Below are positions 27,246-38,408 of a stretch of 64,000 nucleotides of DNA, in pieces (within the stretch, counting starts at the first letter, position 1; each line of letters opens with the position of its first letter). A program made the translations under genes and the position numbers. The DNA is from Pseudacidovorax intermedius (GTDB taxonomy: Bacteria; Pseudomonadota; Gammaproteobacteria; Burkholderiales; Burkholderiaceae_C): the NCBI RefSeq assembly GCF_003350475.1, contig NZ_QQAV01000007.1, forward strand, positions 124,001 to 188,000, given 5' to 3'. The notes under the pieces were generated by a model. It had not been told where the DNA came from. It was given only the letters and a program-made list of their open reading frames with translations, and made no database searches.

Positions 27246-27290
27246 GGCGCGGATCGTCGGGAATGAGGCCTGGAGCAGCCCGGGAGGCGC

Positions 27291-27345
27291 ACTGTGCGTC
27301 GCCGGCCGTCCGGCACGAACGAAGCATTCCGCCATTGCTTAGCCG
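27291..27345 (-). promoter_or_regulatory. CysB-type promoter of the MetQ-SfnB-NtaA operon
   Basis: Minus strand: CGGCTAAGCAATGGCG (27345-27330; 12 of 16 bases equal to the 11167 element), 33 nt, then CACAGT (27296-27291), with TTCGTG 17 nt before the hexamer. ATGCTTCGTT (27327-27318) lies 21 nt before the hexamer, as at the MetQ-like gene 5885-6700. The predicted RNA start is near 27284. Confidence 0.5.
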
Positions 27346-27350
27346 GGCGG

Positions 27351-27362
27351 CGCATAACGGCG
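27351..27362 (+). promoter_or_regulatory. CGCATAACGGCG site facing the MetNI operon
   Basis: A partial match (CGCATAA then divergent) to the CysB-type element, on the plus strand 153 bp before metN. No convincing -10 lies at the 33-nt spacing, so this may be an accessory half-site. The rest of the 269-bp gap 27246-27514 shows no gene. Confidence 0.3.
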
Positions 27363-27514
27363 CAGCGCGGGAGGACGTGGCGCGCCAAAGATGTTTTCCT
27401 CATGAGCAACGCCGGATTCATTCGTTTGTTTTCGAAGCAGGTCGGCCCACAGTCGGGCCTTCGCCATGCCGGGCCGCGCGGTGCCTTGCCCTGCCGGCCC
27501 TTCCTGCCAGACCC

Positions 27515-28417
27515 ATGAGCCTTGTCCCCCACAACGTCGCCACCGACGAGCCCCTGATCCGGCTCGACGGCGTGCACAAGCAATTCGCGCTGCCCGACGG
27601 CCGGCGCTTCACCGCCGTGCAGCCGCTGCAGCTGGCCATCGGCCGCGGCGAGGTCTTCGGCCTCATCGGCAAGAGCGGCGCCGGCAAGTCCACGCTGCTG
27701 CGCCTCATCAACCTGCTGGAGCGGCCCGACGGCGGCCGGGTGCAGGTCAACGGCCGCGACCTCACCCGCCTGTCGCGCCGCGAGCTGCGCGAGACGCGCC
27801 AGTCCATCGGTATGATCTTCCAGCAGTTCAACCTGCTGCAGAACGCGACCGTGGCCGAGAACGTGGCCTTCCCGCTGCGCATCCACGGCCGCCATTCGCG
27901 CGCCGACATCGAGGCGCGGGTGAAGGAATGCCTGGCCCTGGTCGGCCTGGCGGACAAGGCCAGCGCCTACCCGGCGCAGCTCTCGGGCGGCCAGAAGCAG
28001 CGCGTGGCCATCGCCCGTGCGCTGGCGCCGCGGCCCGACGTGCTGCTGTGCGACGAACCCACCTCGGCGCTCGATGCCGAGACCACGCGCGCCCTGCTGC
28101 ATACCCTGCGCGAGATCAACGAGCGCCTGGGGGTGACCATCGTCATCGTCACGCACGAGCTGCCCGTGGTGCAGCAGCTGTGCCGCCGCGTCGCCGTGCT
28201 GGAGCAGGGCGCGCTGGTGGAGCAGTTCGACGTCGACCAGGTGGCGGCCCAGCCGCGCCACAGCAGCCTGGGCCGCGAGCTGGCCGAGCAGATCGCGCAG
28301 CGGCCCTGGTCTCCGCCCGCGCCCGCCGCACCGGCCGCCTCCTCGGCCGGCCGCACGACGCCGGGGGCCGACGCCGGCCCGTCCTCCCTCTCCACCGCCC
28401 GTTTCGCCCATGTCTGA
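27515..28417 (+). CDS. metN: MetN-type ABC ATPase without the C-terminal NIL domain
   Basis: A 300-aa methionine-type importer ATPase. Walker A is GKSGAGKST, Q-loop IFQQFNLLQNATVAENVAFPL (a MetN-typical stretch), signature LSGGQKQRVAIARALA and Walker B VLLCDEPTSALDAETT, with switch His in IVTHELPVV. E. coli MetN is 343 aa and ends in a NIL domain that binds methionine and shuts the transporter. Here that region is replaced by about 45 residues of Pro/Ala/Ser-rich tail, so feedback inhibition by that route should be lost. The last 8 bases overlap metI. The cargo is probably an organosulfur compound, not necessarily methionine. Confidence 0.88.
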   Translation: MSLVPHNVATDEPLIRLDGVHKQFALPDGRRFTAVQPLQLAIGRGEVFGLIGKSGAGKSTLLRLINLLERPDGGRVQVNGRDLTRLSRRELRETRQSIGMIFQQFNLLQNATVAENVAFPLRIHGRHSRADIEARVKECLALVGLADKASAYPAQLSGGQKQRVAIARALAPRPDVLLCDEPTSALDAETTRALLHTLREINERLGVTIVIVTHELPVVQQLCRRVAVLEQGALVEQFDVDQVAAQPRHSSLGRELAEQIAQRPWSPPAPAAPAASSAGRTTPGADAGPSSLSTARFAHV

Positions 28418-29072
28418 GAACATCCTCGCCATCCTTCCCGAGCTCTGGACGGCCACCCAGCAGACGCTGCTGATGCTGGCCATCGGCCTCGGTGCGGCCA
28501 TCGTGCTCGGCGGCCCCCTGGGCGTGCTGCTCTTCCTGCTCGGGCCCGGGCAGTCGCTGGGCCACCGGCCGTCCTACCTGGTGCTGAGCTGGGTGGTAAA
28601 CACCGTGCGTTCCTTCCCCTTCATCATCCTGCTGGTGGCGCTGGTGCCCTTCACGCGGGTGATCGCCGGCACTTCCATCGGGCCGCTGGCGGCGGCCGTG
28701 CCGCTGTCGGTGGCGGCCATTCCGTACTTCGCGCGGCTGGTGGAGCAGAGCATCCGCGAGGTGCCGCGTGGCGTCATCGAGGCGGCCCATGCCATGGGCG
28801 CCTCCGAACTGCAGATCGTCTGGCGGGTGCTGGTGCGCGAGGCCCGCTCGGGCCTGGTGCTGGCCCTCACCGTGCTGGCCGTGAGCTTCCTGTCGTACTC
28901 GGCCGTGGCCGGCGTGGTGGGCGGCGGCGGCATCGGCGATCTCGCCATCCGCTACGGCTACTACCGCTTCCAGACCGACGTGATGCTGCTGACCGTGGCC
29001 CTGCTCGTGGTGCTGGTGCAGATCATCCAGTTCGGTGGCAATGCCATCGCGCACCGGCTGGACAAGCGCTGA
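28410..29072 (+). CDS. metI: MetI-type ABC permease
   Basis: A 220-aa inner-membrane permease with five or six hydrophobic segments. It matches the MetI family by SENILAILPELWTATQQTLLMLAIGLGAAIVLGGPLGVLLFL, NTVRSFPFIILLVALVPFTRVIAGTSIGP, the coupling segment EVPRGVIEAAHAMGASELQIVWRVLV and the end VVGGGGIGDLAIRYGYYRFQTDVM. It overlaps the ATPase gene by 8 bp and precedes a MetQ-like gene by 41 bp, giving a complete MetNIQ-type importer. Confidence 0.92.
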   Translation: MSENILAILPELWTATQQTLLMLAIGLGAAIVLGGPLGVLLFLLGPGQSLGHRPSYLVLSWVVNTVRSFPFIILLVALVPFTRVIAGTSIGPLAAAVPLSVAAIPYFARLVEQSIREVPRGVIEAAHAMGASELQIVWRVLVREARSGLVLALTVLAVSFLSYSAVAGVVGGGGIGDLAIRYGYYRFQTDVMLLTVALLVVLVQIIQFGGNAIAHRLDKR

Positions 29073-29113
29073 CCGCTTCTCTCCTTTCCTTCCTCTCCCC
29101 TCGGCTCCTTTCC

Positions 29114-29929
29114 ATGTCCCTGTTCCGTCGTCACGTCGTCCTGGCCAGCCTGGCCGCTTTCCTGGCCCTGCCCGCGCTGGCGCAGCAGCCTGCCGCCGCC
29201 AAGAAGGAGCTGGTCATCGGCACCACTGCCGGCTCCAACATCGAGGTGCTGCGACGCGGCATCCAGCCGCAGCTCGAACAGAAGGGCTACAAGGTCAAGC
29301 TCGTCGAGTTCAGCGACTACGTGCAGCCCAACCATGCCCTGGCGCAGGGCTCGCTGGACGCCAACTACTTCCAGCACATCATCTACCTCAGGAACTTCGC
29401 CGAGAAGAACAAGCTGGACCTCGCGGAGGTGGTGCAGGGCCCCATCGCGCCACTGGGCCTGTACTCGCGCAAGTTCAAGACCGTGGCCGAGGTGAAGGAG
29501 GGCGCGCGCATCGCCGTGCCCAACGACCCCACCAACTTGGCGCGCACCTTCGTCTTCCTGGAGCAGTACGGCCTGGTCAAGACCAAGGCCGGCGTCGACC
29601 CGCTCAAGGTCACCGAGAAGGACATCGCCGACAACCCGAAGAAGCTGCGCTTCGTGCCGCTCGAAGCCGCCCAGCTGCCGCGTGCGCTGGACGACACCGA
29701 CTTCTCGGTCATCAACGGCAACTTCGCCATCTCGTCCGGCCTCAAGCTCACCGATGCGGTGGCGCTGGAGAAGACGCCCGACTACTACCTCCTGGTGGCG
29801 GCCGTGCGCACGCCCGACAAGGGCGCGCCCTGGGTGGCCGACCTGCAGACGGCCTTCAGGTCGCCCTTCTTCAAGCAGGTGCTGGACCGCGACTTCGCCG
29901 GCTACGCGCGCCCGGCGGCGCTGCATTAG
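29114..29929 (+). CDS. metQ: MetQ/NlpA-family ABC substrate-binding protein
   Basis: 271 aa, the binding protein of the adjacent MetNI-type permease. The signal peptide MSLFRRHVVLASLAAFLALP ends at ALAQQ, again without a lipobox Cys. Core motifs are LVIGTTAGSNIEVLRRGIQPQLE, YVQPNHALAQGSLDANYFQHIIYL, PLGLYSRKFKTVAEVKEGARIAVPNDPTNLARTFVFLEQYGLV and INGNFAISSGLKLTDAV. It is third in the rightward operon. It is one of three MetQ-like proteins in the window and the only one encoded with its own permease. Confidence 0.9.
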   Translation: MSLFRRHVVLASLAAFLALPALAQQPAAAKKELVIGTTAGSNIEVLRRGIQPQLEQKGYKVKLVEFSDYVQPNHALAQGSLDANYFQHIIYLRNFAEKNKLDLAEVVQGPIAPLGLYSRKFKTVAEVKEGARIAVPNDPTNLARTFVFLEQYGLVKTKAGVDPLKVTEKDIADNPKKLRFVPLEAAQLPRALDDTDFSVINGNFAISSGLKLTDAVALEKTPDYYLLVAAVRTPDKGAPWVADLQTAFRSPFFKQVLDRDFAGYARPAALH

Positions 29930-30076
29930 GGCCGTTACGGGAAGCGACGCGCCACACAAGGACTCGTGCGCTCCCAGACAAGTGCCTTCGGGAGGCCGTT
30001 CCTAAACTGGTTTGACGCGGTGCAGCAAAGCCGGACATGGGGTCCGGCGGGCCGCCTCACCAGGAGTTTCCGTCCC

Positions 30077-31009
30077 ATGAACAGCCCCCTCGTCGTCCCG
30101 GGCCAGCGCCCGTCCCGCCCTGCCTGGCCGGTGCGTCTGCGCCGGCTGCTGGCCACTGCCCTGGGCACCGTCGCCCTGGCGCTGGGGGCCGCCGGCGCGG
30201 TCCATGCCGAGGTCTTTCCCACGCCCAGCGAATGTGCGGCGCTGCAGGCCAAGTACCCGCAGTTCAAGGGCAAGACGCTGGTCAATGCCATCAATCCGCA
30301 CACGCCGGGCTACGAGACCATCGACCCCAAGAACCCCGAGCGCTACATCGGCTTCGACATCGACCTGGGCGAGACGATCGGCGCCTGCCTGGGCTTCAAG
30401 CTCAGCTACAAGCCCGTGACCTTCGCGGCGCTGCTCACCACGCTGCAGTCGGGCCAGGCCGACATCGTCATCTCCGACATCTACGCCACCGAGGAGCGCG
30501 CCAAGGCGGCCGACTTCATCACCTATTCCAAGGTGTTCGACGGCGTGCTGGTGGCCAAGGGCAACCCGAAGAAGATCACCGGCATCGACACCTCGCTGTG
30601 CGGCACCGTCGCGGCCGAGAACACGGGTTATGTGGAAGTGCCGCTGATCCAGGCCCTGGCCGCGCAGTGCAAGGCCGCGGGCAAGCCCGAGCCGCAGATC
30701 CAGCTCTACGACAACAACCAGAGCTGCATCCAGGCCATCCTGGCCGGCCGTGCCGACACCTACATCAACGACGTCAACACGGTCGACAGCGCCGTCAAGG
30801 CCTACCCGGACAAGCTGGAGAAGGCCCTGGCCGTGACCATTCCGTACTCGGTGGGCATCGCCGTGCCCAAGGGCAAGACCGACTTCCGCGATGCCGTGAT
30901 GGCCGCGCTGGTGGCGCTGCAGAAGTCCGGCGCCCACACCGAGATGCTCAAGAAGAACGGCCTGCCGGTCGAGAACCTCGAAGCCCCGCGCCTGGTCCTG
31001 GCCAAGTGA
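30077..31009 (+). CDS. Family-3 ABC substrate-binding protein (polar amino-acid type)
   Basis: A 310-residue periplasmic protein of solute-binding family 3 (glutamine/ectoine/polar amino-acid type). A long N-terminal leader ends near AVHAEV. Core motifs are YIGFDIDLGETIGACLGFKLSYKPVTFAALLTTLQSGQADIVISDIYATEERAKAADFITYSKVFDG and SVGIAVPKGKTDFRDAV. CAGGAG lies 10 nt before the ATG. It leads a rightward run with a fused permease-ATPase and an acetamidase/formamidase, so the ligand may be an amide or an amide-bearing amino-acid derivative; that is inference. Confidence 0.87.
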   Translation: MNSPLVVPGQRPSRPAWPVRLRRLLATALGTVALALGAAGAVHAEVFPTPSECAALQAKYPQFKGKTLVNAINPHTPGYETIDPKNPERYIGFDIDLGETIGACLGFKLSYKPVTFAALLTTLQSGQADIVISDIYATEERAKAADFITYSKVFDGVLVAKGNPKKITGIDTSLCGTVAAENTGYVEVPLIQALAAQCKAAGKPEPQIQLYDNNQSCIQAILAGRADTYINDVNTVDSAVKAYPDKLEKALAVTIPYSVGIAVPKGKTDFRDAVMAALVALQKSGAHTEMLKKNGLPVENLEAPRLVLAK

Positions 31010-31053
31010 GTTGACCTGGTCCCGGGCGGCCCCGGCCGCCCGGGAGTGGCCCG

Positions 31054-32649
31054 ATGGACCTGTTTCTTCATTACCTGACGATGCCCTACCTGCTGTGGGG
31101 CATCGGATTCACACTCGCGGCGACCGGCATCGGCCTGGCAGGCGGGGCGGTGATCGGGCTGCTGCTGGCGGCGATGCAGCTCAGCCGGTTCCGCCCGCTG
31201 GCCGCCTTCGCCCGCGCCTATGCGGTGATCTTCCGCGGCACGCCGCTGATCCTGCAGATGGTGTTCTTCTACGACGCGCTGCCGCATGTGGGCATCCGCA
31301 TGCCGGGCCTGGTGGCCGCCGGGCTGGCGCTGGCCTTCAACGAGGCCACCTTCATCGCCGAGATGGTGCGCTCGGGCGTGCTGGGCGTGGAGCGCGGCCA
31401 GGTGCTGGCCGGCCAGGCCCTGGGCCTGACGCCGCGCATGCTCATGCGCCGCATCATCGCGCCGCAGGCCCTGCGCGCCATGCTGCCGGCCATGGGCAAC
31501 GAGGCGGTGAGCACGCTCAAGAACTCGTCGCTCGCCTCGGTCATCGCGGTGCAGGAGCTGACGCTGCGCAGCACGCAGCTGGCGTCGTCCACCTTCGACT
31601 TCTTCTCCGTCTTCTTCGCCTCGGGCCTGCTGTACCTGGTGCTGACCGGTGGCATCAGCCTGGTGCAGCTGTGCCTGGAGGCACGCTTCGACCTCGACCG
31701 GCAGGCCACGCTGCAGGGCCTGGCGCGCTGGCTGCCCTGGCGGCGCGCGCCGGTGCTGGCGGCCACGCCGGCCCCGGAGCTGTCAGTCGTGCATGACGAT
31801 GAAAGTCCGCGTGCGACCACCGGCGCCGCGGCCGCCTCGGACGCCGCCCGTGCCGAACGCGCAGCCGTCCTGGCCGAGGCGCCGACCGTGGTCCGCGTGA
31901 GCGGGCTCAGCAAGACCTACGGCGGCCAGACGGTGCTGGCGGACCTGGCGCTCGACGTGGCCGTCGGCGAGGTGGTGGCCCTGCTGGGCCCCAGCGGCTC
32001 GGGCAAGAGCACGCTGCTGCGCTGCATCAGCCACCTGGAGGACTGGGACGCCGGCCACATCGTGGTCGACGGCCAGCGCCTGGGCTACCAGGCCGGCGGC
32101 GAGCGCATGAGCCCGGCCGACCTGGCGCGCGAGCGGGCCCGGGTGGGCGTGGGCATGGTGTTCCAGCAGTTCAACCTGTTCGCGCATCTGTCGGCGCTCG
32201 AGAACATCGCCGGGCCGCTGCGCTGGGTGCATGGCTGGACGGCCGAGCGGGCCGAGCAGCGGGCGCGCGAGCTGCTGGCGCGCGTGGGCCTGTCGCACCG
32301 CGCCGATGCGCTGCCGCGGCACCTGTCGGGCGGCCAGCAGCAGCGCGTCGCCATCGCACGGGCCATCGCGCCCGGGCCGCGCGTGCTGCTGATGGACGAG
32401 CCCACCTCCGCGCTCGACCCAGCCCTGGTCAACGAGGTGCTGGAGGTGATCCGCTCCCTGGCGCAGGACGGCGGGCTGGCGCTGGTCATCTCCACCCACC
32501 AGCTGCATTTCGCGGCCGACGTGGCCGACCGCGTGGTCTTCCTGGCGGGCGGCCGCATCGTCGAGAGCGGGCCCGCGCGCGAGGTCCTCACCCGGCCACA
32601 GCATCCGCAGACGGCCCGCTTCCTCAACGTGATGGCGGCCGAGCGCTGA
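31054..32649 (+). CDS. Fused amino-acid ABC permease and ATPase (GlnP-GlnQ type)
   Basis: 531 aa in one frame. Residues 1-215 are a HisM/GlnP-type permease with RGTPLILQMVFFYDALP (61-77), ATFIAEMVRSGVLGVERGQVLAGQALGL as the coupling loop, and NSSLASVIAVQEL. Residues 216-278 are an Ala/Pro/Arg-rich linker. Residues 279-531 are a GlnQ-type ATPase with Walker A GPSGSGKST (312-320), MVFQQFNLFAHLSALENI, LSGGQQQRVAIARAIAP (424-440), LLMDEPTSALDP and a switch His in ISTHQL. The permease and ATPase are normally separate genes. The fused product could work as a homodimer with both half-sites. It lies 44 bp after the binding-protein gene. Confidence 0.9.
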   Translation: MDLFLHYLTMPYLLWGIGFTLAATGIGLAGGAVIGLLLAAMQLSRFRPLAAFARAYAVIFRGTPLILQMVFFYDALPHVGIRMPGLVAAGLALAFNEATFIAEMVRSGVLGVERGQVLAGQALGLTPRMLMRRIIAPQALRAMLPAMGNEAVSTLKNSSLASVIAVQELTLRSTQLASSTFDFFSVFFASGLLYLVLTGGISLVQLCLEARFDLDRQATLQGLARWLPWRRAPVLAATPAPELSVVHDDESPRATTGAAAASDAARAERAAVLAEAPTVVRVSGLSKTYGGQTVLADLALDVAVGEVVALLGPSGSGKSTLLRCISHLEDWDAGHIVVDGQRLGYQAGGERMSPADLARERARVGVGMVFQQFNLFAHLSALENIAGPLRWVHGWTAERAEQRARELLARVGLSHRADALPRHLSGGQQQRVAIARAIAPGPRVLLMDEPTSALDPALVNEVLEVIRSLAQDGGLALVISTHQLHFAADVADRVVFLAGGRIVESGPAREVLTRPQHPQTARFLNVMAAER

Positions 32650-32683
32650 CCATCGATCCTCCTTCTTTCCTGCAGAACCGACG

Positions 32684-33922
32684 ATGCATCACCTTCTCCG
32701 TGTCTCTCCCCAAACGGTGCACTGGGGTTACTTCAGCAAGGCCGTGGCGCCCGCGCTCACCGTGCGCTCGGGCGACCGCGTCACCATCGAGACGTTGACC
32801 CACCATGCCAACGACGACCACGAGCGCATGGTGGCCGGCGACCCGGGCGCCGAATCGGTGTTCGCCTGGACCTGCGAGCACAAGGCCGTTCCGCGCCGCG
32901 GCGCCGGGCCCACCACCGGCCCCTTCACCTATGGCGAAGGCGAGGGCGTGGGCGTGCACCTGCTGACCGGGCCGGTGGTGGTGGAAGGCGCCGAGCCGGG
33001 CGACGTGCTGGAGGTGCGCATCCTCGACGTGATGCCGCGCCCCAGCTGCAACCATGCCTTCCTGGGCCGCAGCTTCGGCTCCAACGCCGCAGCGTCCTGG
33101 GGCTTCCAGTACCGCGACCTGATCGAGGAGCCCAAGCCGCGCGAGGTGATCACCATCTTCGAGCTGGACACCACCGCCGAGCCCACGGCACGCGCCGTCT
33201 ACAACTATGTGTGGACGCCGCAGACCGACCCCGACGGCGTGGTGCATCCCACCATCGACTATCCCGGCGTGAAGGTGGACCCGGCCACGGTGCGCCGGCG
33301 CGAGGACATCCTGCGCAACGTACAGGTGCCGGCCCGGCTGCACTTCGGCACCATGGGGCTGGCGCCCGCCGAGGCCGACTTCGTCAGCTCCATTCCGCCC
33401 AGCTACAGCGGCGGCAACATCGACGACTGGCGCGTGGGCAAGGGCGCGCGCATGTACTACCCGGTGGCGGTGGCCGGCGCCTACTTCTCGGTGGGCGATC
33501 CGCATGCGGCACAGGGTGACAGCGAGCTGGGCGGCACCGCCATCGAATGCTCGCTGACCGGCGAGTTCGAGCTGGTGCTGCACAAGAAGGCCGACCTGCC
33601 CGGCACCTTGCTCGAAGGGCTGGACCATCCGCTCCTGGAGACCGAAGAACTGTGGTCGGTGTATGGCTTCACCTATGCCAACTACCTGGCGACGCTGGGC
33701 CCCGAGGGCCAGACCACGGTGGCGGAAACCGCCTCGCTGGACCCGGCCATGCGCGACGCCTTCCGCAAGCTGCGGCGCTTCCTGATGACGGTGCACAAGC
33801 TCAGCGAGGACGAGGCCATCGCCCTCATGTCCGTGGCGGCCGACTTCGGCGTGACCCAGGTGGTGGATGGCAACTGGGGCGTGCACGGGTCCATCCGCAA
33901 GTGCGTCTTCGGGCCGCGCTGA
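32684..33922 (+). CDS. Acetamidase/formamidase (FmdA/AmdA family)
   Basis: 412 aa, full length for the FmdA/AmdA family, which hydrolyses formamide, acetamide or other short amides to ammonia and acid. Motifs are VHWGYFSKAVAPALTVRSGDRVTIETLTHHANDDHERM, TCEHKAVPRRGAGP, AEPGDVLEVRILD, YFSVGDPHAAQGDSELGGTAIE and DFGVTQVVDGNWGVH. It starts 34 bp after the fused transporter gene, so it is probably co-transcribed with the importer. A second, clearly homologous amidase domain is fused to an AraC regulator in the convergent gene 28 bp downstream. Confidence 0.9.
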   Translation: MHHLLRVSPQTVHWGYFSKAVAPALTVRSGDRVTIETLTHHANDDHERMVAGDPGAESVFAWTCEHKAVPRRGAGPTTGPFTYGEGEGVGVHLLTGPVVVEGAEPGDVLEVRILDVMPRPSCNHAFLGRSFGSNAAASWGFQYRDLIEEPKPREVITIFELDTTAEPTARAVYNYVWTPQTDPDGVVHPTIDYPGVKVDPATVRRREDILRNVQVPARLHFGTMGLAPAEADFVSSIPPSYSGGNIDDWRVGKGARMYYPVAVAGAYFSVGDPHAAQGDSELGGTAIECSLTGEFELVLHKKADLPGTLLEGLDHPLLETEELWSVYGFTYANYLATLGPEGQTTVAETASLDPAMRDAFRKLRRFLMTVHKLSEDEAIALMSVAADFGVTQVVDGNWGVHGSIRKCVFGPR

Positions 33923-33957
33923 GCCCCCGCCCGGCGGCGGGGCAGTCGGGTCAACTG
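33923..33957. terminator. Hairpins between convergent amidase genes
   Basis: GCCCCCGCC/GGCGGGGC (33923-33943) and GGCAGT...ACTGCC (33941-33959 region) can form overlapping stems in the 28-bp gap between two convergent stop codons. There is no T-run. This may be a bidirectional transcription end. Confidence 0.3.
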
Positions 33958-36425
33958 CCGGGAGCGGTCCTGGCCCGGGCCTTCGCCAGCCTCTCCTCGA
34001 ACAGGGCCTTGCGGATCACGGCATGCACCCCCCAGTTGCCGTCCACCACCTGCGTGACGCCGAAGTCCACGGCGACCGACATCAGCGAGATGGCCTCGTC
34101 CTCCGTCAGCCCCATGGCCGTCATGAGAAAGCGCCGTGTCTTGCGGAAGGCGTCGCGCATGGCCGGGTCCAGCGAGGACTTCTCGTACACCAGGCTGCGC
34201 GCCCGGTCGCCGAACTCCTGCAGGTAGTTGGGATGCGAGAAGCCGTGCAGCACCCATTCGTCGGCCGTCTCGACCAGCGGGTAGTCGATGTCGGCATAGG
34301 GTTCATCGCGCAGGTCCTTGGCCTTGTGCAGGACCAGCTGGAACACGCCGGTCAGCGAGCATTCGATGGCCGTGCCGCACAGCTCGCTGTCGCCCTGCGA
34401 CGCATGCGGATCGCCCACCGACAGCAGGCCGCCGTCGACCGCCACCCGCAGGTACACCGTGGCGCCCTTGGCGATGCGCCAGTTGTCGAGGTTGCCGCCG
34501 AAGGAGGAGGGCGGGATCGAATCCACCAGCCCCGTCTCGGCCGGTGCCAGCGCGATGACGCCGAAGTGCGGGCGCACCGGGATCTTCACGCCCTCCAGCA
34601 CGCCGTGGTTCTCGACGATGGCACTGCGGTCGATCGGCACGCCGGGGTAGTCGATGGTGGTGTGCAGCACGCCGTGCGGATCGCGCTGCGGCGTCCAGCG
34701 GAAGTTGTAGACGGCATGGGCACACATGCGCCCGGGGTGGCAGTCCACCTCGTAGATGGTGATGACCTCGCGCGGCTTGGGCTCCTCGATCAGGTCGTCG
34801 TAATGGAAGCCCCACCACGCGGCCGCATTGCTGCCGAAGGCGCGGCCCTCGTAGCGCGCGTTGGCGGCCAGGCGGGGCGCGAGGTCGAGGATGCGCACCT
34901 CCAGCACGTCGCCGGGCTCCGCGCCCTGCACCGCCACGGGGCCGGTGCAGATGTGCACGCCGAAACCCTCGCCGTTGCCGCGGCCGTAGATGGAGGCGTC
35001 GGTGGGGCCGGCGCCGCGCCGGTCCACCGCCTTGTGCTCGCGCGTCCAGTGGAAGACGCGCTCGGCGCCCGAGTCGCCCTTGATCATGCGCTCGTGGTCG
35101 TCGTACGCATGCTGGGTCAGCGTCTCGATGGTCACGATGTCGCCCGAGGCCACGGTGAGCACCGGCGGGATGGTGCGGCTGAAGTAGCCCCAGTGGATGG
35201 TTTCGGGCGTAGCCGGCAGATGGTGGTGGCGGCCGGTCTGGCCGGCGGCGGCCGAGGGGGCCGGTGCCTGTGCCGTGGCGTGGCCGGCGGTGGTGCCGCG
35301 TGGCGCATCGGCCTGCGGCTCGGGCCGGCTGCCGGATTCGAAATAGCCCGAGGGCCAGCCGCGCTGGATGCGCTTGCGCAGGCGCTGCTGGCTGGCCTCG
35401 TTGGCCTGCTGCCGGTACTGCCGCGGCGACATGCGATAGCGGTCGCGGAAGGCATGGCTGAAATGGGCCGCGTCGTTGAAGCCCCAGCGGAAGCAGATGT
35501 CCGAGATCGACAGGTGGCCGTACTGGCGGTTGGCCAGGTCGGCGCGGCAGCGCTCCAGCCGGCGCTGGCGCAGGTAGGTGGTGAAGGTCAGGCCCTGGCC
35601 TTCGAAGAGCTTCTGCACCAGGCGCTCGGACACGCGCTCCTGCGCCGCCACCGCCGCCAGCGAGAGCGCAGGGTCGCTCAGCGCCCCTTCGATGAACTGG
35701 CACACGCGCCGGAAGGTTGCGGCCTGCGTGTTGCTGATGCCGGCGGGAGCGTCGCCCGGCCGCGCGGCCATGCGTGCGGCGATGAGCTCGGACAGCGAAT
35801 GCTCCAGCGGCGCGATGTCGTCGTCGCCCAGGCTGTCGAGGGCGTCCTCCAGCGCGCCGAGGGTGCCGGCCAGCAGGCGGCCCATGCCGCTGCGCCCGGG
35901 CAGGTGGCCCAGGGCCGTGCCCTGCGCGCCGCGCAGGCCGGCGGGGAAGGCACGCGCGGGCAGCGAGACGTGGAACTGGCGGAAGTCCGTCTGGAACACC
36001 AGCTGCGCCGCGCTGCGCGTGGCGCCCCACACCACATCGCCCGCAGCGAGGGCAAGGGCCGGCTGGCCGTCGCCGGGCTGCAGATGCGCCTGGCCGGCCT
36101 GCAGCAGTGCGATCCACACATGGCCCGCGTCGCCGTGCAGCGGCTCCAGCGTCTGCGGCGAGGAGGCCACGCGCGCCAGGCCCACGCCGCGCGCCGTCCG
36201 ACCCGCCGCCAGCCGGCCGTGCAGCGGCGCGGCCGAGGGCGTCTCGCAGGCGCGAAGCTGGTGCGGCTCGAGTGCGGCACGCCACGCCTGCGGACGCTGG
36301 TGCACCGGGTAGGACTCGGTCGTGAACTGTTCGAGCTGCAACGTCGGGATCCCTGCAAGGCAACACGACCGCGTCGCAAGACACATGCCACGCATGCCGG
36401 TGCCCACCTGCCACCGCGCGGGCAT
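33951..36425 (-). CDS. AraC-family regulator fused to an acetamidase/formamidase
   Basis: 824 aa in one uninterrupted frame. Residues about 30-225 are an AraC-type sensory domain (TTESYPVHQRPQAWRAAL, LALAAGDVVWG). Residues about 235-340 are the double HTH (VCQFIEGALSDPALSLAAVAAQERVSERLVQKLFEGQGLT, then ISDICFRWGFNDAAHFSHAFRDRYRMSPRQYRQ). Residues 345-402 are a Gly/Ala/Pro linker. Residues 403-824 are a complete FmdA/AmdA amidase (ETIHWGYFSRTIPPVLTVASGD, HAYDDHERM, DPHASQGDSELCGTAIE, DFGVTQVVDGNWGVH) paralogous to the free enzyme at 32684-33922. The start at 36425 has a purine-rich AGAAGGGA just upstream. A regulator covalently carrying the enzyme could sense and consume its own inducer. RidA is divergent, 48 bp away. 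Confidence 0.88.
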   Translation of the reverse strand: MPARWQVGTGMRGMCLATRSCCLAGIPTLQLEQFTTESYPVHQRPQAWRAALEPHQLRACETPSAAPLHGRLAAGRTARGVGLARVASSPQTLEPLHGDAGHVWIALLQAGQAHLQPGDGQPALALAAGDVVWGATRSAAQLVFQTDFRQFHVSLPARAFPAGLRGAQGTALGHLPGRSGMGRLLAGTLGALEDALDSLGDDDIAPLEHSLSELIAARMAARPGDAPAGISNTQAATFRRVCQFIEGALSDPALSLAAVAAQERVSERLVQKLFEGQGLTFTTYLRQRRLERCRADLANRQYGHLSISDICFRWGFNDAAHFSHAFRDRYRMSPRQYRQQANEASQQRLRKRIQRGWPSGYFESGSRPEPQADAPRGTTAGHATAQAPAPSAAAGQTGRHHHLPATPETIHWGYFSRTIPPVLTVASGDIVTIETLTQHAYDDHERMIKGDSGAERVFHWTREHKAVDRRGAGPTDASIYGRGNGEGFGVHICTGPVAVQGAEPGDVLEVRILDLAPRLAANARYEGRAFGSNAAAWWGFHYDDLIEEPKPREVITIYEVDCHPGRMCAHAVYNFRWTPQRDPHGVLHTTIDYPGVPIDRSAIVENHGVLEGVKIPVRPHFGVIALAPAETGLVDSIPPSSFGGNLDNWRIAKGATVYLRVAVDGGLLSVGDPHASQGDSELCGTAIECSLTGVFQLVLHKAKDLRDEPYADIDYPLVETADEWVLHGFSHPNYLQEFGDRARSLVYEKSSLDPAMRDAFRKTRRFLMTAMGLTEDEAISLMSVAVDFGVTQVVDGNWGVHAVIRKALFEERLAKARARTAPGS

Positions 36426-36473: not shown

Positions 36474-36863
36474 ATGAATCCCATCTTCCACATGATCAGC
36501 GGCGCACCGGACCCGGTCGCGCCCTTCAGCCATGCCGTCGAATGCGAAGGCTGGGTCTTCGTCACGGGCCAGATGCCGTTCAGCGGCACGGCGCTGGACA
36601 GCGGCTATCCCGAGGGCATCGAGGCCCAGACCCATGCCGTGATGGCCAACCTGAAGACGGTGCTCGAAGGCTGCGGCCTGGACCTGGCGAACGTGCTGTC
36701 GGCCCGCATCTTCCTGACCCATTTCGATGAGGATTACGCGCGCATGAATGAGGTCTACCGCAGCCACTTCCCGCCCGGCCGTCTGCCGGCGCGCACCTGC
36801 GTGGGCGTGACCGGCCTGGCCCAGGGCGCGCGGGTGGAGATCGACTTCGTGGCGCGGCGCTGA
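36474..36863 (+). CDS. ridA: RidA-family enamine/imine deaminase
   Basis: 129 aa, full length for the RidA/YjgF/UK114 family, cytoplasmic trimers that hydrolyse reactive 2-aminoacrylate-type enamines. It shows FVTGQMPFSG, HAVMANLKTVLEGCGLDLANVLSARIFLTHFDEDYARMNEVYRSHFP, then LPARTCVGV with R107 (equivalent to catalytic Arg105) and GARVEIDFVA with E122. CAGGAG lies 8 nt before the ATG. It is divergent from the AraC-amidase fusion and so may be one of its targets. It is an RidA subfamily member; which one I cannot say. Confidence 0.88.
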   Translation: MNPIFHMISGAPDPVAPFSHAVECEGWVFVTGQMPFSGTALDSGYPEGIEAQTHAVMANLKTVLEGCGLDLANVLSARIFLTHFDEDYARMNEVYRSHFPPGRLPARTCVGVTGLAQGARVEIDFVARR

Positions 36864-37430: not shown

Positions 37431-38408
37431 TCAGATCGCGTCGGCGACGAGTTCCTGCGCGGCCATGGGCTCGGGCGCGCTGCCGGCCCCGTCCGCGCGC
37501 ACCGCGGCCTCCACCACCTCGCGCGTCAGCGTCGGCGAGAACGATTCGATGAAGGCGTACACATAGCGCCGCAGGTAGCTTCCGCGGCGAACCGCCAGCC
37601 GTGTGTGGTTGATGCCGAACAGGGCGCCGGCATCCACCGCGCGCAGGCCGGTGTCGCGTTCGGCCTCGAAGGCCACGCCGGCCACGATGCCCACGCCCAT
37701 GCCCAGCTGCACATAGGTCTTGATGACGTCGGCGTCCATCGCGGCCAGGGCGATGTCGGCCTGCACGCCCGCCTGGGTGAAGGCGTCGTCGATGCGCTGG
37801 CGGCCGGTGAAGCCGTTGTCGTAGGTGATGAGCGGATGCTTCGCCAGCGACTGCAGGGTGAGCGGCTCGGCCAATACCGGATGGCCCGGCGGCGCGATCA
37901 CCGCATGGGTCCAGCGGTAGCTGGCCAGGGCCGCGAGCTGTGGATAGTCGGCCAGCGCCTCGGTGGCGATGCCGACATCGGCCTCGCCTTCCAGCAGCAT
38001 CTGCGCGATCTGCCGCGGCGAGCCCTGGTGGATGTGCAGGCGCACCGAGGGGAACTGGCGGCGGAAGTCCTGCACCGCTTCAGGCAGTGCATAGCGGGCC
38101 TGCGAATGCGTGGCCGCGATGGACAGCAGGCCTTCGTTCTGGGTGGCGAACTCCTCGCCCGCCTTGCGCAGGTTGCCGCTCTCGACCAGCAGCCGCTCGA
38201 TGATGGGCAGCACATGGCTGCCGGGCTCGGTCAGGCCCGTCAGCCGCTTGCCGACGCGGATGAACAGCTCGATGCCCAGTTCCTGCTCCAGCTCGCGGAT
38301 CTGCCGGCTCACGCCCGGCTGCGAGGTGTGCAGCACCTGGGCCACCTCGGTGAGATTGAAGTTGCGTCGCACGGCCTCGCGGACCGAACGCAGTTGCTGG
38401 AAATTCAT
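37431..38408 (-). CDS. cysB: CysB-family LysR regulator of sulfur assimilation (CysB or SsuR)
   Basis: 325 aa, normal CysB length. The N-terminus MNFQQLRSVREAVRRNFNLT, then EVAQVLHTSQPGVSRQIRELEQELGIELFIRVGKRLTGLTEPG, is the CysB winged HTH. The effector domain has IAATHSQARYALP with T100 and Q103, positions that contact sulfate or acetylserine in CysB, and VGIVAGVAFE near the C-terminus. CysB proteins activate sulfur-acquisition genes when sulfate or cysteine is scarce. Burkholderiales often have both CysB and the related SsuR, and I cannot decide between them from this alone. It is the prime candidate to bind the repeated CGCATAAGCAAGCG-type sites in this window. Confidence 0.9.
   Translation of the reverse strand: MNFQQLRSVREAVRRNFNLTEVAQVLHTSQPGVSRQIRELEQELGIELFIRVGKRLTGLTEPGSHVLPIIERLLVESGNLRKAGEEFATQNEGLLSIAATHSQARYALPEAVQDFRRQFPSVRLHIHQGSPRQIAQMLLEGEADVGIATEALADYPQLAALASYRWTHAVIAPPGHPVLAEPLTLQSLAKHPLITYDNGFTGRQRIDDAFTQAGVQADIALAAMDADVIKTYVQLGMGVGIVAGVAFEAERDTGLRAVDAGALFGINHTRLAVRRGSYLRRYVYAFIESFSPTLTREVVEAAVRADGAGSAPEPMAAQELVADAI

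Follow-up and report, generated by a model that had tools for sequence, protein, structure and literature searches.

In a 64,000-nucleotide stretch of the Pseudacidovorax intermedius genome (contig NZ_QQAV01000007.1, positions 124,001 to 188,000; hereafter the window), a single open reading frame (ORF) joins an AraC-type sensor domain, a double helix-turn-helix (HTH) DNA-binding domain, a linker and a full amidase of the FmdA/AmdA family. Close to this fusion gene lies an operon encoding an amino-acid-type ATP-binding cassette (ABC) importer and a free amidase, and the conserved operator-like site at the head of this operon makes it highly probable that the fusion protein is its activator. Taken as a whole, the protein may well be an AraC-type activator of amide uptake and hydrolysis that carries a probably active amidase and whose induction is tied to amide turnover, a reading which we hold at about even confidence.

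The original prediction had placed the regulator and the amidase in one frame, and this was confirmed by the absence of stops over 824 codons and by the Pfam matches. HTH_18 (PF12833) matched residues 260-340 at 71 bits (cut-off 33.6) and PF00165 reached 29.9 bits (cut-off 26.6), as in AraC/XylS regulators with a double HTH, and FmdA_AmdA (PF03069) spanned the C-terminal half at 97.7 bits (cut-off 27). The N-terminal sensor region, probably of the cupin type, matched AraC_binding_2 at 20.9 bits, which is under the cut-off of 27. Narrower family profiles were not reached: the FeaR equivalog NF007243 gave 118.6 bits against a threshold of 199, and the formamidase FmdA equivalog NF045496 (threshold 500) gave 61.1 bits for the fusion and 67.1 for the free amidase. 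Neither a GntR-type winged HTH (wHTH) nor an aminotransferase fold was among the fusion's Pfam matches at an E-value of 0.001, and the protein does not, therefore, qualify as a MocR regulator. The linker begins with three residues, R355, G356 and P358, that are invariant across 52 aligned proteins; what follows is a variable tether of low model confidence, and the linker length ranges from 46 to 86 residues in these proteins. A stop or frameshift between the halves was looked for through relatives. Two near relatives, the Pseudacidovorax contigs L001 and L002 (L numbers denote the compared loci), carry the same 824-codon frame without interruption; the frame is therefore not a sequencing error.

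The open frame is real over its full length; its first 28 codons, however, are likely, if not settled, to be untranslated, which would give a product of 796 residues and not the 824-residue protein first proposed. Residue 29 falls on a TTG at 36341; AGGGA stands upstream of this codon, and the region preceding it holds a conserved DNA element. Among 78 fused loci from genome contigs, the longest possible ORF starts exactly at the residue-29 position in 16, including L007, L011, L065 and L073 of the window's own group. The tblastn matches (n=79) started at residues 27-34 in 50 cases and earlier in 29. An alignment of 15 loci presented conserved DNA between the residue-29 codon and the divergent ridA gene, including TGGCAnnTGTCTTGC.

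The original prediction had the fusion regulating amide genes and placed a binding site either ahead of position 30077 or between 36426 and 36473; an operator-like site was found at the first of these places. The DNA ahead of the gene for the importer's substrate-binding protein was aligned in eleven loci, and ten of them shared a conserved block, the remaining sequence being too short. The block is a direct repeat of the form ACAAG-N3-TYGTGCGC-N6-ACAAGT, whose second repeat occupies the -35 position. A 29-bp matrix derived from eight of these loci was then run on the other fused loci, 65 of 70 having a recognisable target gene. A match was counted when the best site of the whole stretch, on either strand, was correctly oriented and fell between -350 and +60 relative to the operon of the free amidase or the importer. 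This rule held in 43 of the 65 loci (1.5 expected), and 40 column-shuffled matrices reached at most 9 of the 65; among the loci with a lone amidase it held in 0 of 23 (0.46 expected). The genes behind the 43 sites encode an importer in 24 cases, a type-A or twin-arginine translocation (Tat) amidase in 10 and a type-B amidase in 9. Nine plasmid loci were fetched after the matrix had been fixed, of which six obeyed the rule (L146, L148, L150, L152, L154 and L155, with L148 and L150 being close kin of loci already used) and L149, L151 and L153 did not. Neither of the control loci L147 and L156 had a comparable site, and the search beside the free regulators L137 and L076 found nothing.

The geometry of the promoter was examined in 54 hand-listed loci, comprising test matches, ten loci of the window's type and several misses. 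After three sites scoring below 12.5 were dropped, the 51 aligned sites, a few of which are doubtful (such as L039, L049 and L062), showed ACAAG-N-A-T-T-T/C-GTGCGC, six bases, ACAAGT, 19 bases and TAnnnT, the last with its T, A and T conserved at 69%, 88% and 80%. AraC/XylS regulators bind direct repeats spaced by about two helix turns at their target promoters, and repeats that lie 22 bp apart, the second of them at -35, are the expected layout for an AraC-type activator that touches the sigma-70 RNA polymerase. At up to three mismatches, the operator of the window was the sole match to the pattern in 5,975,233 bases.

Further operator-like sequences were observed outside this arrangement. 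Three Oxalobacteraceae loci have, beside the fusion, a second good site (L056 9175, L058 8759, L061 9254) 88-138 bp upstream of a gene that reads as porin-like from its sequence, and an amide porin may possibly belong to the regulon there. A retrained matrix, treated as a lead only, was applied to loci that fail the rule and picked out weak sites in some Parvibaculum and Alteromonadaceae loci. These sites lie 66-125 bp ahead of genes of the type-B amidase, Rieske, TauD-like and (by sequence reading) reductase-like kinds, which suggests that the catabolic regulon is larger in these bacteria. Between 36426 and 36473 no operator was seen; the only candidate is a half-site-like element between ridA and the likely fusion start, found in the alignment of 15 loci, which lies in the probably untranslated part of the frame and is one base shorter than the operator half-site. 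It could possibly serve autoregulation or the control of ridA.

The architecture is sparse but widespread, being present in many related bacteria from several orders of Proteobacteria. A scan of genome contigs found 126 relatives, of which the best 80 were kept and 79 loci were returned, a sample biased towards the query. Regulator and amidase shared one ORF in 78 of these 79 loci, although L013, L074 and L079 run off the contig end and the frame of L068 breaks inside the amidase; in L076, a metagenome-assembled genome of Thalassolituus, they are separate genes. Given the bias of this sample, whole genomes were searched with the amidase half alone. The share of genomes with a match at an E-value of 1e-50 was 21 of 399 at the level of the order, 17 of 398 at that of the phylum and 7 of 299 at that of the family; the three samples overlap and include the window's own genome. 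The 31 stretches taken from the order and phylum matches held seven fused loci (L117, L127-L131 and L135), one unfused regulator beside an amidase (L137) and 23 amidases with no regulator of the fused clade in the stretch, many of which carry a twin-arginine-like motif according to a crude motif search. Plasmid records gave 16 further matches that include the regulator sequence (H1-H16), nine of which were fetched. The search beyond the window thus bore out the presence of the fused form in relatives, with 86 fused loci tallied, the window counted. In one plasmid locus, from Rhizobium johnstonii TP60 (L155 6295-8704), the fusion is annotated as two ORFs, a hypothetical protein and an acetamidase/formamidase family protein, and is perhaps a broken copy. 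Public annotations name such genes either 'acetamidase/formamidase family protein' or 'AraC family transcriptional regulator'.

The enzyme half and the free amidase of the window are paralogues, as had been predicted, and residues 400-812 of the fusion are 63% identical to the free enzyme. The original prediction had called the junction consistent with capture of a neighbouring gene; a recent capture of the neighbouring amidase gene was rejected by two trees. The 77 fused enzymes in a 160-amidase tree formed one side of a branch with a support of 95 in the Shimodaira-Hasegawa-like approximate likelihood ratio test (SH-aLRT), and in a thinned tree of 102 amidases, to which lone amidases had been added, the 44 fused ones grouped together again (SH-aLRT 98). 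The free amidase of the window sits in a different clade (support 100), and the fused clade spans Alpha-, Beta- and Gammaproteobacteria. Capture from the neighbouring gene is not supported, given that all fused amidases share a clade to which the local free enzyme does not belong and that the architecture is widespread; the linker joining at the position of the free enzyme's first residues, once read as consistent with it, reflects only ordinary homology between two amidases. Identity between the lone amidases and the fused half is 59-71%, and by branch length in the 102-amidase tree these enzymes are nearer to it than the free amidase of the window, the exact sister clade not being resolved in that tree. 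The fusion appears to have arisen once, long ago. On the regulator side, family-profile matches at an E-value of 1e-40 were surveyed in 398 genomes, with at most five candidates scored per genome, and split into two groups, at or above 259 bits and at or below 193 bits. The upper group had nine members, eight fused and one free (G723, which is L137).

The enzyme half appears complete, as first claimed. Twelve D/E/N/Q/H positions conserved across the free amidase groups were used as the family-conserved polar set, and all 12 are present in the protein of the window. Eleven of them (D442, D506, N645, D647, D672, H674, Q677, D679, E681, E688 and E719) are kept in 99-100% of the fused copies that have a residue at the position (76-79 of 79, depending on the position). 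Differences fixed between fused and free amidases numbered none at a 95% threshold and one, at residue 438, at 85%; free amidases have His at this position in 48 of 48 type-A and 25 of 26 type-B enzymes with a residue there. The ratio of nonsynonymous to synonymous substitution rates (dN/dS) between the gene of the window and its relatives was below 0.5 in both halves in all ten comparisons, indicating purifying selection, and in every one of the ten the enzyme half had the lower value (0.145, against 0.349 for the regulator half, with L003), with dS being high in the more distant pairs. A degenerate enzyme half is not supported by this overall conservation, although residues 438 and 561 vary. 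Active-site data or roles of single residues for this amidase family were not found in the open-access literature, including the available passages on formamidases and on the gamma-lactamase 2WKN. The conservation makes an active enzyme half probable, a confidence that we lowered because Asp 561 varies.

The features described above and the neighbouring genes are listed in Table 1. The free amidase stops 28 bp from the fusion stop, on the opposite strand. A free amidase was present in the stretch around the fusion in 79 of the 86 fused loci. Those lacking one in the stretch were L016, L023, L038, L049, L051, L070 and L135, among which L038 has a classic FmdA-type gene and L051 a partial type-B frame at the contig end. 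RidA, and an importer substrate-binding protein over 60% identical to that of the window, are common near fusions. Together with these two proteins, the amidase lies opposite and downstream of the fusion in 13 loci (the window counted) and upstream on the fusion's strand in 14; in other loci the fusion accompanies a Tat-type amidase, or a type-B amidase with oxygenase, PuuE- and MetX-like genes. The neighbour clusters include some wrong-frame ORFs and were used as leads only. Deducing the substrate from neighbouring genes was attempted and dropped: the sets differ among loci (amino-acid-type importer and RidA; Rieske, LigB, TauD, RutA- and RutB-like genes; PuuE- and MetX-like genes), and we therefore name no substrate. 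Among the 47 type-A amidases of the genome-contig loci (46 beside a fusion, and that of L076), a crude motif rule found a Tat motif with no importer in 5, an importer with no Tat motif in 35 and neither in 7, a suggestive contrast, the five Tat cases being close relatives. Two other gene sets flank the region. Downstream of ridA, positions 37431-38408 encode a CysB-family LysR regulator (NF009327, 450.7 bits, cut-off 402), possibly a second regulator of the region, and directly upstream of the operator, at 27263-29929, lies an ABC importer set (ATPase, permease and periplasmic binding protein) that reads as methionine-type from its sequence.

Table 1. Features of the fusion locus. Coordinates are positions in the window, except in the last row, where they refer to the loci named.
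Feature	Coordinates	Strand	Remarks
AraC-amidase fusion, open frame	33951-36425	-	824 codons, no internal stop
Likely fusion coding sequence	33951-36341	-	796 aa, from TTG (codon 29); start deduced from where the ORFs of relatives and the tblastn matches begin, and from upstream alignment
N-terminal AraC-type (probably cupin) sensor domain	35742-36341	-	Residues 29-228
AraC-type double HTH DNA-binding domain	35397-35732	-	Residues 232-343
Linker	35229-35393	-	Residues 345-399
FmdA/AmdA-family amidase half	33990-35228	-	Residues 400-812
Codon of fusion residue 438	35112-35114	-	
Conserved element GCAAGACACATGCCAC	36376-36391	.	Between ridA and likely fusion start; half-site-like; alignment of 15 loci
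Predicted operator ACAAGGACTCGTGCGCTCCCAGACAAGT	29956-29983	+	Two ACAAG repeats 22 bp apart, ahead of importer/free-amidase operon
Predicted -10 element TAAACT	30003-30008	+	19 bp past second repeat
Substrate-binding protein (SBP_bac_3) of amino-acid-type ABC importer	30077-31009	+	First gene of predicted target operon; ATG at 30077
ABC permease and ATPase, single frame	31054-32649	+	
Free amidase P0002	32684-33922	+	Type A; no signal peptide seen, enzyme domain from the first residues on; predicted target
RidA-family protein	36474-36863	+	Divergent from fusion; PF01042, 99.6 bits
Weak operator-like sites in other loci	L050 765, 3709, 5857; L047 1605, 2335, 2455; L052 3455, 5851		Retrained matrix

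From these results we infer the following mechanism. The AraC part would bind the two ACAAG-type half-sites, occupying the -35 place, and would, in the presence of an amide, switch on the promoter of the importer/free-amidase operon (genes 30077-33922). In other species the promoters of Tat-amidase, type-B-amidase and perhaps porin genes would be activated in the same manner, and a fusion located inside its target operon would raise its own synthesis too. The attached amidase, held on its flexible linker, would most likely hydrolyse the inducing amide or a close relative of it, and catalysis would feed back on DNA binding, with induction depending on the amide supply outrunning turnover. Such a coupling of catalysis and gene control is possible, though we place it somewhat short of an even chance.

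Several observations weigh against this mechanism. The protein has an AraC sensor domain, which may by itself be enough to sense the inducer. The operator test fails in 22 of the 65 loci, including all seven Parvibaculum and all three Alteromonadaceae, and its matches are not independent, since the 48 promoters form 17 flank clusters at >70% identity and 8 at >65% (shuffled sequence reaches 63% flank identity). A reversed control pattern also has one match genome-wide, and because the pattern was in addition drawn from these very sites, the genome-wide match count is weak evidence by itself. In the enzyme half, Asp 561 is found in all free rows with a residue there and is kept in just 68% of fused copies, including that of the window; of the 79 fused copies, 72 have Gln at residue 438 and seven have His; and loops 470-487 and 675-685 are uncertain parts of the predicted model. 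The unfused L076, L137 and L147 nest within the fused clade of a 62-row regulator tree, on weak branches (83-93), and a single fused regulator clade is not quite rejected by the approximately unbiased (AU) test (p 0.077). The likelier reading is that these three regulators lost the enzyme half, which argues against the enzyme being essential for DNA binding. This apparent loss, together with the variation at positions 438 and 561, also counts against a simple self-resetting sensor. L137 keeps a type-B amidase directly upstream of its regulator. L147 (5055-5951, on a Paraburkholderia graminis plasmid) lies beside LLM-oxidoreductase, cysteine hydrolase and flavin reductase genes, a set that is RutA/RutB-like by sequence reading, and no FmdA-type amidase is annotated in its stretch.

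The same observations bear on what the two halves do for one another. The cupin may sense the ligand and the amidase may be a second isozyme that is merely kept in stoichiometry or oligomerised, its catalysis having no effect on DNA binding. This explanation is improbable taken singly, roughly one chance in several, and nevertheless ranks close behind the coupled reading. In its favour are a sensor domain that appears complete, a long linker of variable length and low model confidence, and clade members that exist unfused either beside an amidase (L076 and L137) or with none (L147). It would, however, be odd for one clade to stay fused across three classes of Proteobacteria merely to supply more enzyme when a free amidase stands beside nearly every fusion, and the invariant start of the linker speaks against independent halves as well.

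Another explanation is an enzyme turned sensor, in which the amidase half binds the amide and turns over little or nothing, by analogy with the aminotransferase-like half of the MocR subfamily, where such regulators are known from the available descriptions. The replacement by Gln of the His found at position 438 in free relatives, and the partial retention of Asp 561, would fit this explanation, yet the other 11 conserved polar residues are kept and the enzyme half is strongly conserved overall. Moreover, seven fused copies keep His 438, one of them (L022) inside a Gln clade, and the position therefore tolerates both residues; we regard a purely sensory amidase as unlikely. That two genes were joined by a frameshift or misassembly, or that the gene is decaying, could be suspected from the few relatives with broken or split frames (L068 and L155), but the one-ORF form recurs throughout the genome-contig loci and in seven further genome stretches, and the dN/dS values are those of constrained genes in both halves, which leaves an artefact with a negligible probability. 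A coupled activator with a probably working amidase is the reading that we prefer.

Regulators joined to enzymes or enzyme-like folds are found in other families. In PutA, Ada and other trigger enzymes, one polypeptide is at once enzyme and DNA-binding regulator, and its catalysis is linked to regulation; their domains differ from those of the AraC-amidase fusion, for which the coupling is a proposal from sequence. AraC regulators such as those that NCBIfam names FtrA and GbdR likewise pair an AraC HTH with an enzyme-like fold, a DJ-1/PfpI-like (GATase1-like) domain, but there it replaces the N-terminal sensor, whereas here a complete amidase lies C-terminal to the HTH. The structure 3b9t, which was deposited under the name of a twin-arginine signal protein and is an acetamidase/formamidase homologue of Methylobacillus flagellatus, is a free enzyme with no DNA-binding part. 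Regulators fused to enzyme-derived domains are already known as a kind, as the available text on MocR and BzdR describes. In MocR, GabR and EnuR, a GntR wHTH is fused to an aminotransferase-fold domain that serves as ligand sensor; the likeness lies in the layout, a linker between a DNA-binding domain and a full-size C-terminal domain of enzyme origin, and in the control of catabolic genes. The HTH family and the enzyme fold differ, and the accounts available give no separate sensor domain in that layout, whereas the present fusion has cupin sensor, HTH and enzyme together and keeps most of the conserved enzyme residues. In BzdR, according to the accessible part of its description, an HTH-XRE domain is joined through a linker to a shikimate-kinase-like domain, again a DNA-binding and an enzyme-derived domain in one regulator, but the protein is a repressor of benzoate genes, its families are others, and the kinase-like domain is an effector sensor with 23% identity to the enzyme (PMC3602430). 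An AraC gene upstream of amiD is mentioned in the passages available, amiD being an amidase-signature enzyme of another family than FmdA/AmdA. A description of the AraC-amidase fusion itself was not found in the open-access literature, in agreement with the initial impression that no such system had been described, and the direct-repeat operator at 29956-29983 is new here.

Fusions of regulators with intact-looking enzymes are natural experiments on the coupling of catalysis and gene control. The present one apparently arose a single time and survives in many members; its conserved operator allows the regulon to be read, and the free paralogue of the enzyme beside it can serve as internal control. 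The coupling question can therefore be tested directly with active-site mutants. Some proteins labelled merely 'acetamidase/formamidase family protein' are predicted to be transcription factors, and the fusion offers a starting point for finding the regulon of an amide pathway about which little is known. More speculatively, and with less confidence than we give to the coupling itself, these proteins might form a widespread class of self-resetting activators, in which an AraC factor sitting on the DNA brings along the enzyme that breaks down its own amide inducer, measures amide flux and not concentration, and switches off as the pathway catches up. The enzyme half would then have come from the group of lone, often exported (Tat) amidases and would have been moved to the DNA by one ancient fusion. 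If this were true, the gene switch would carry the enzyme that consumes its own signal.

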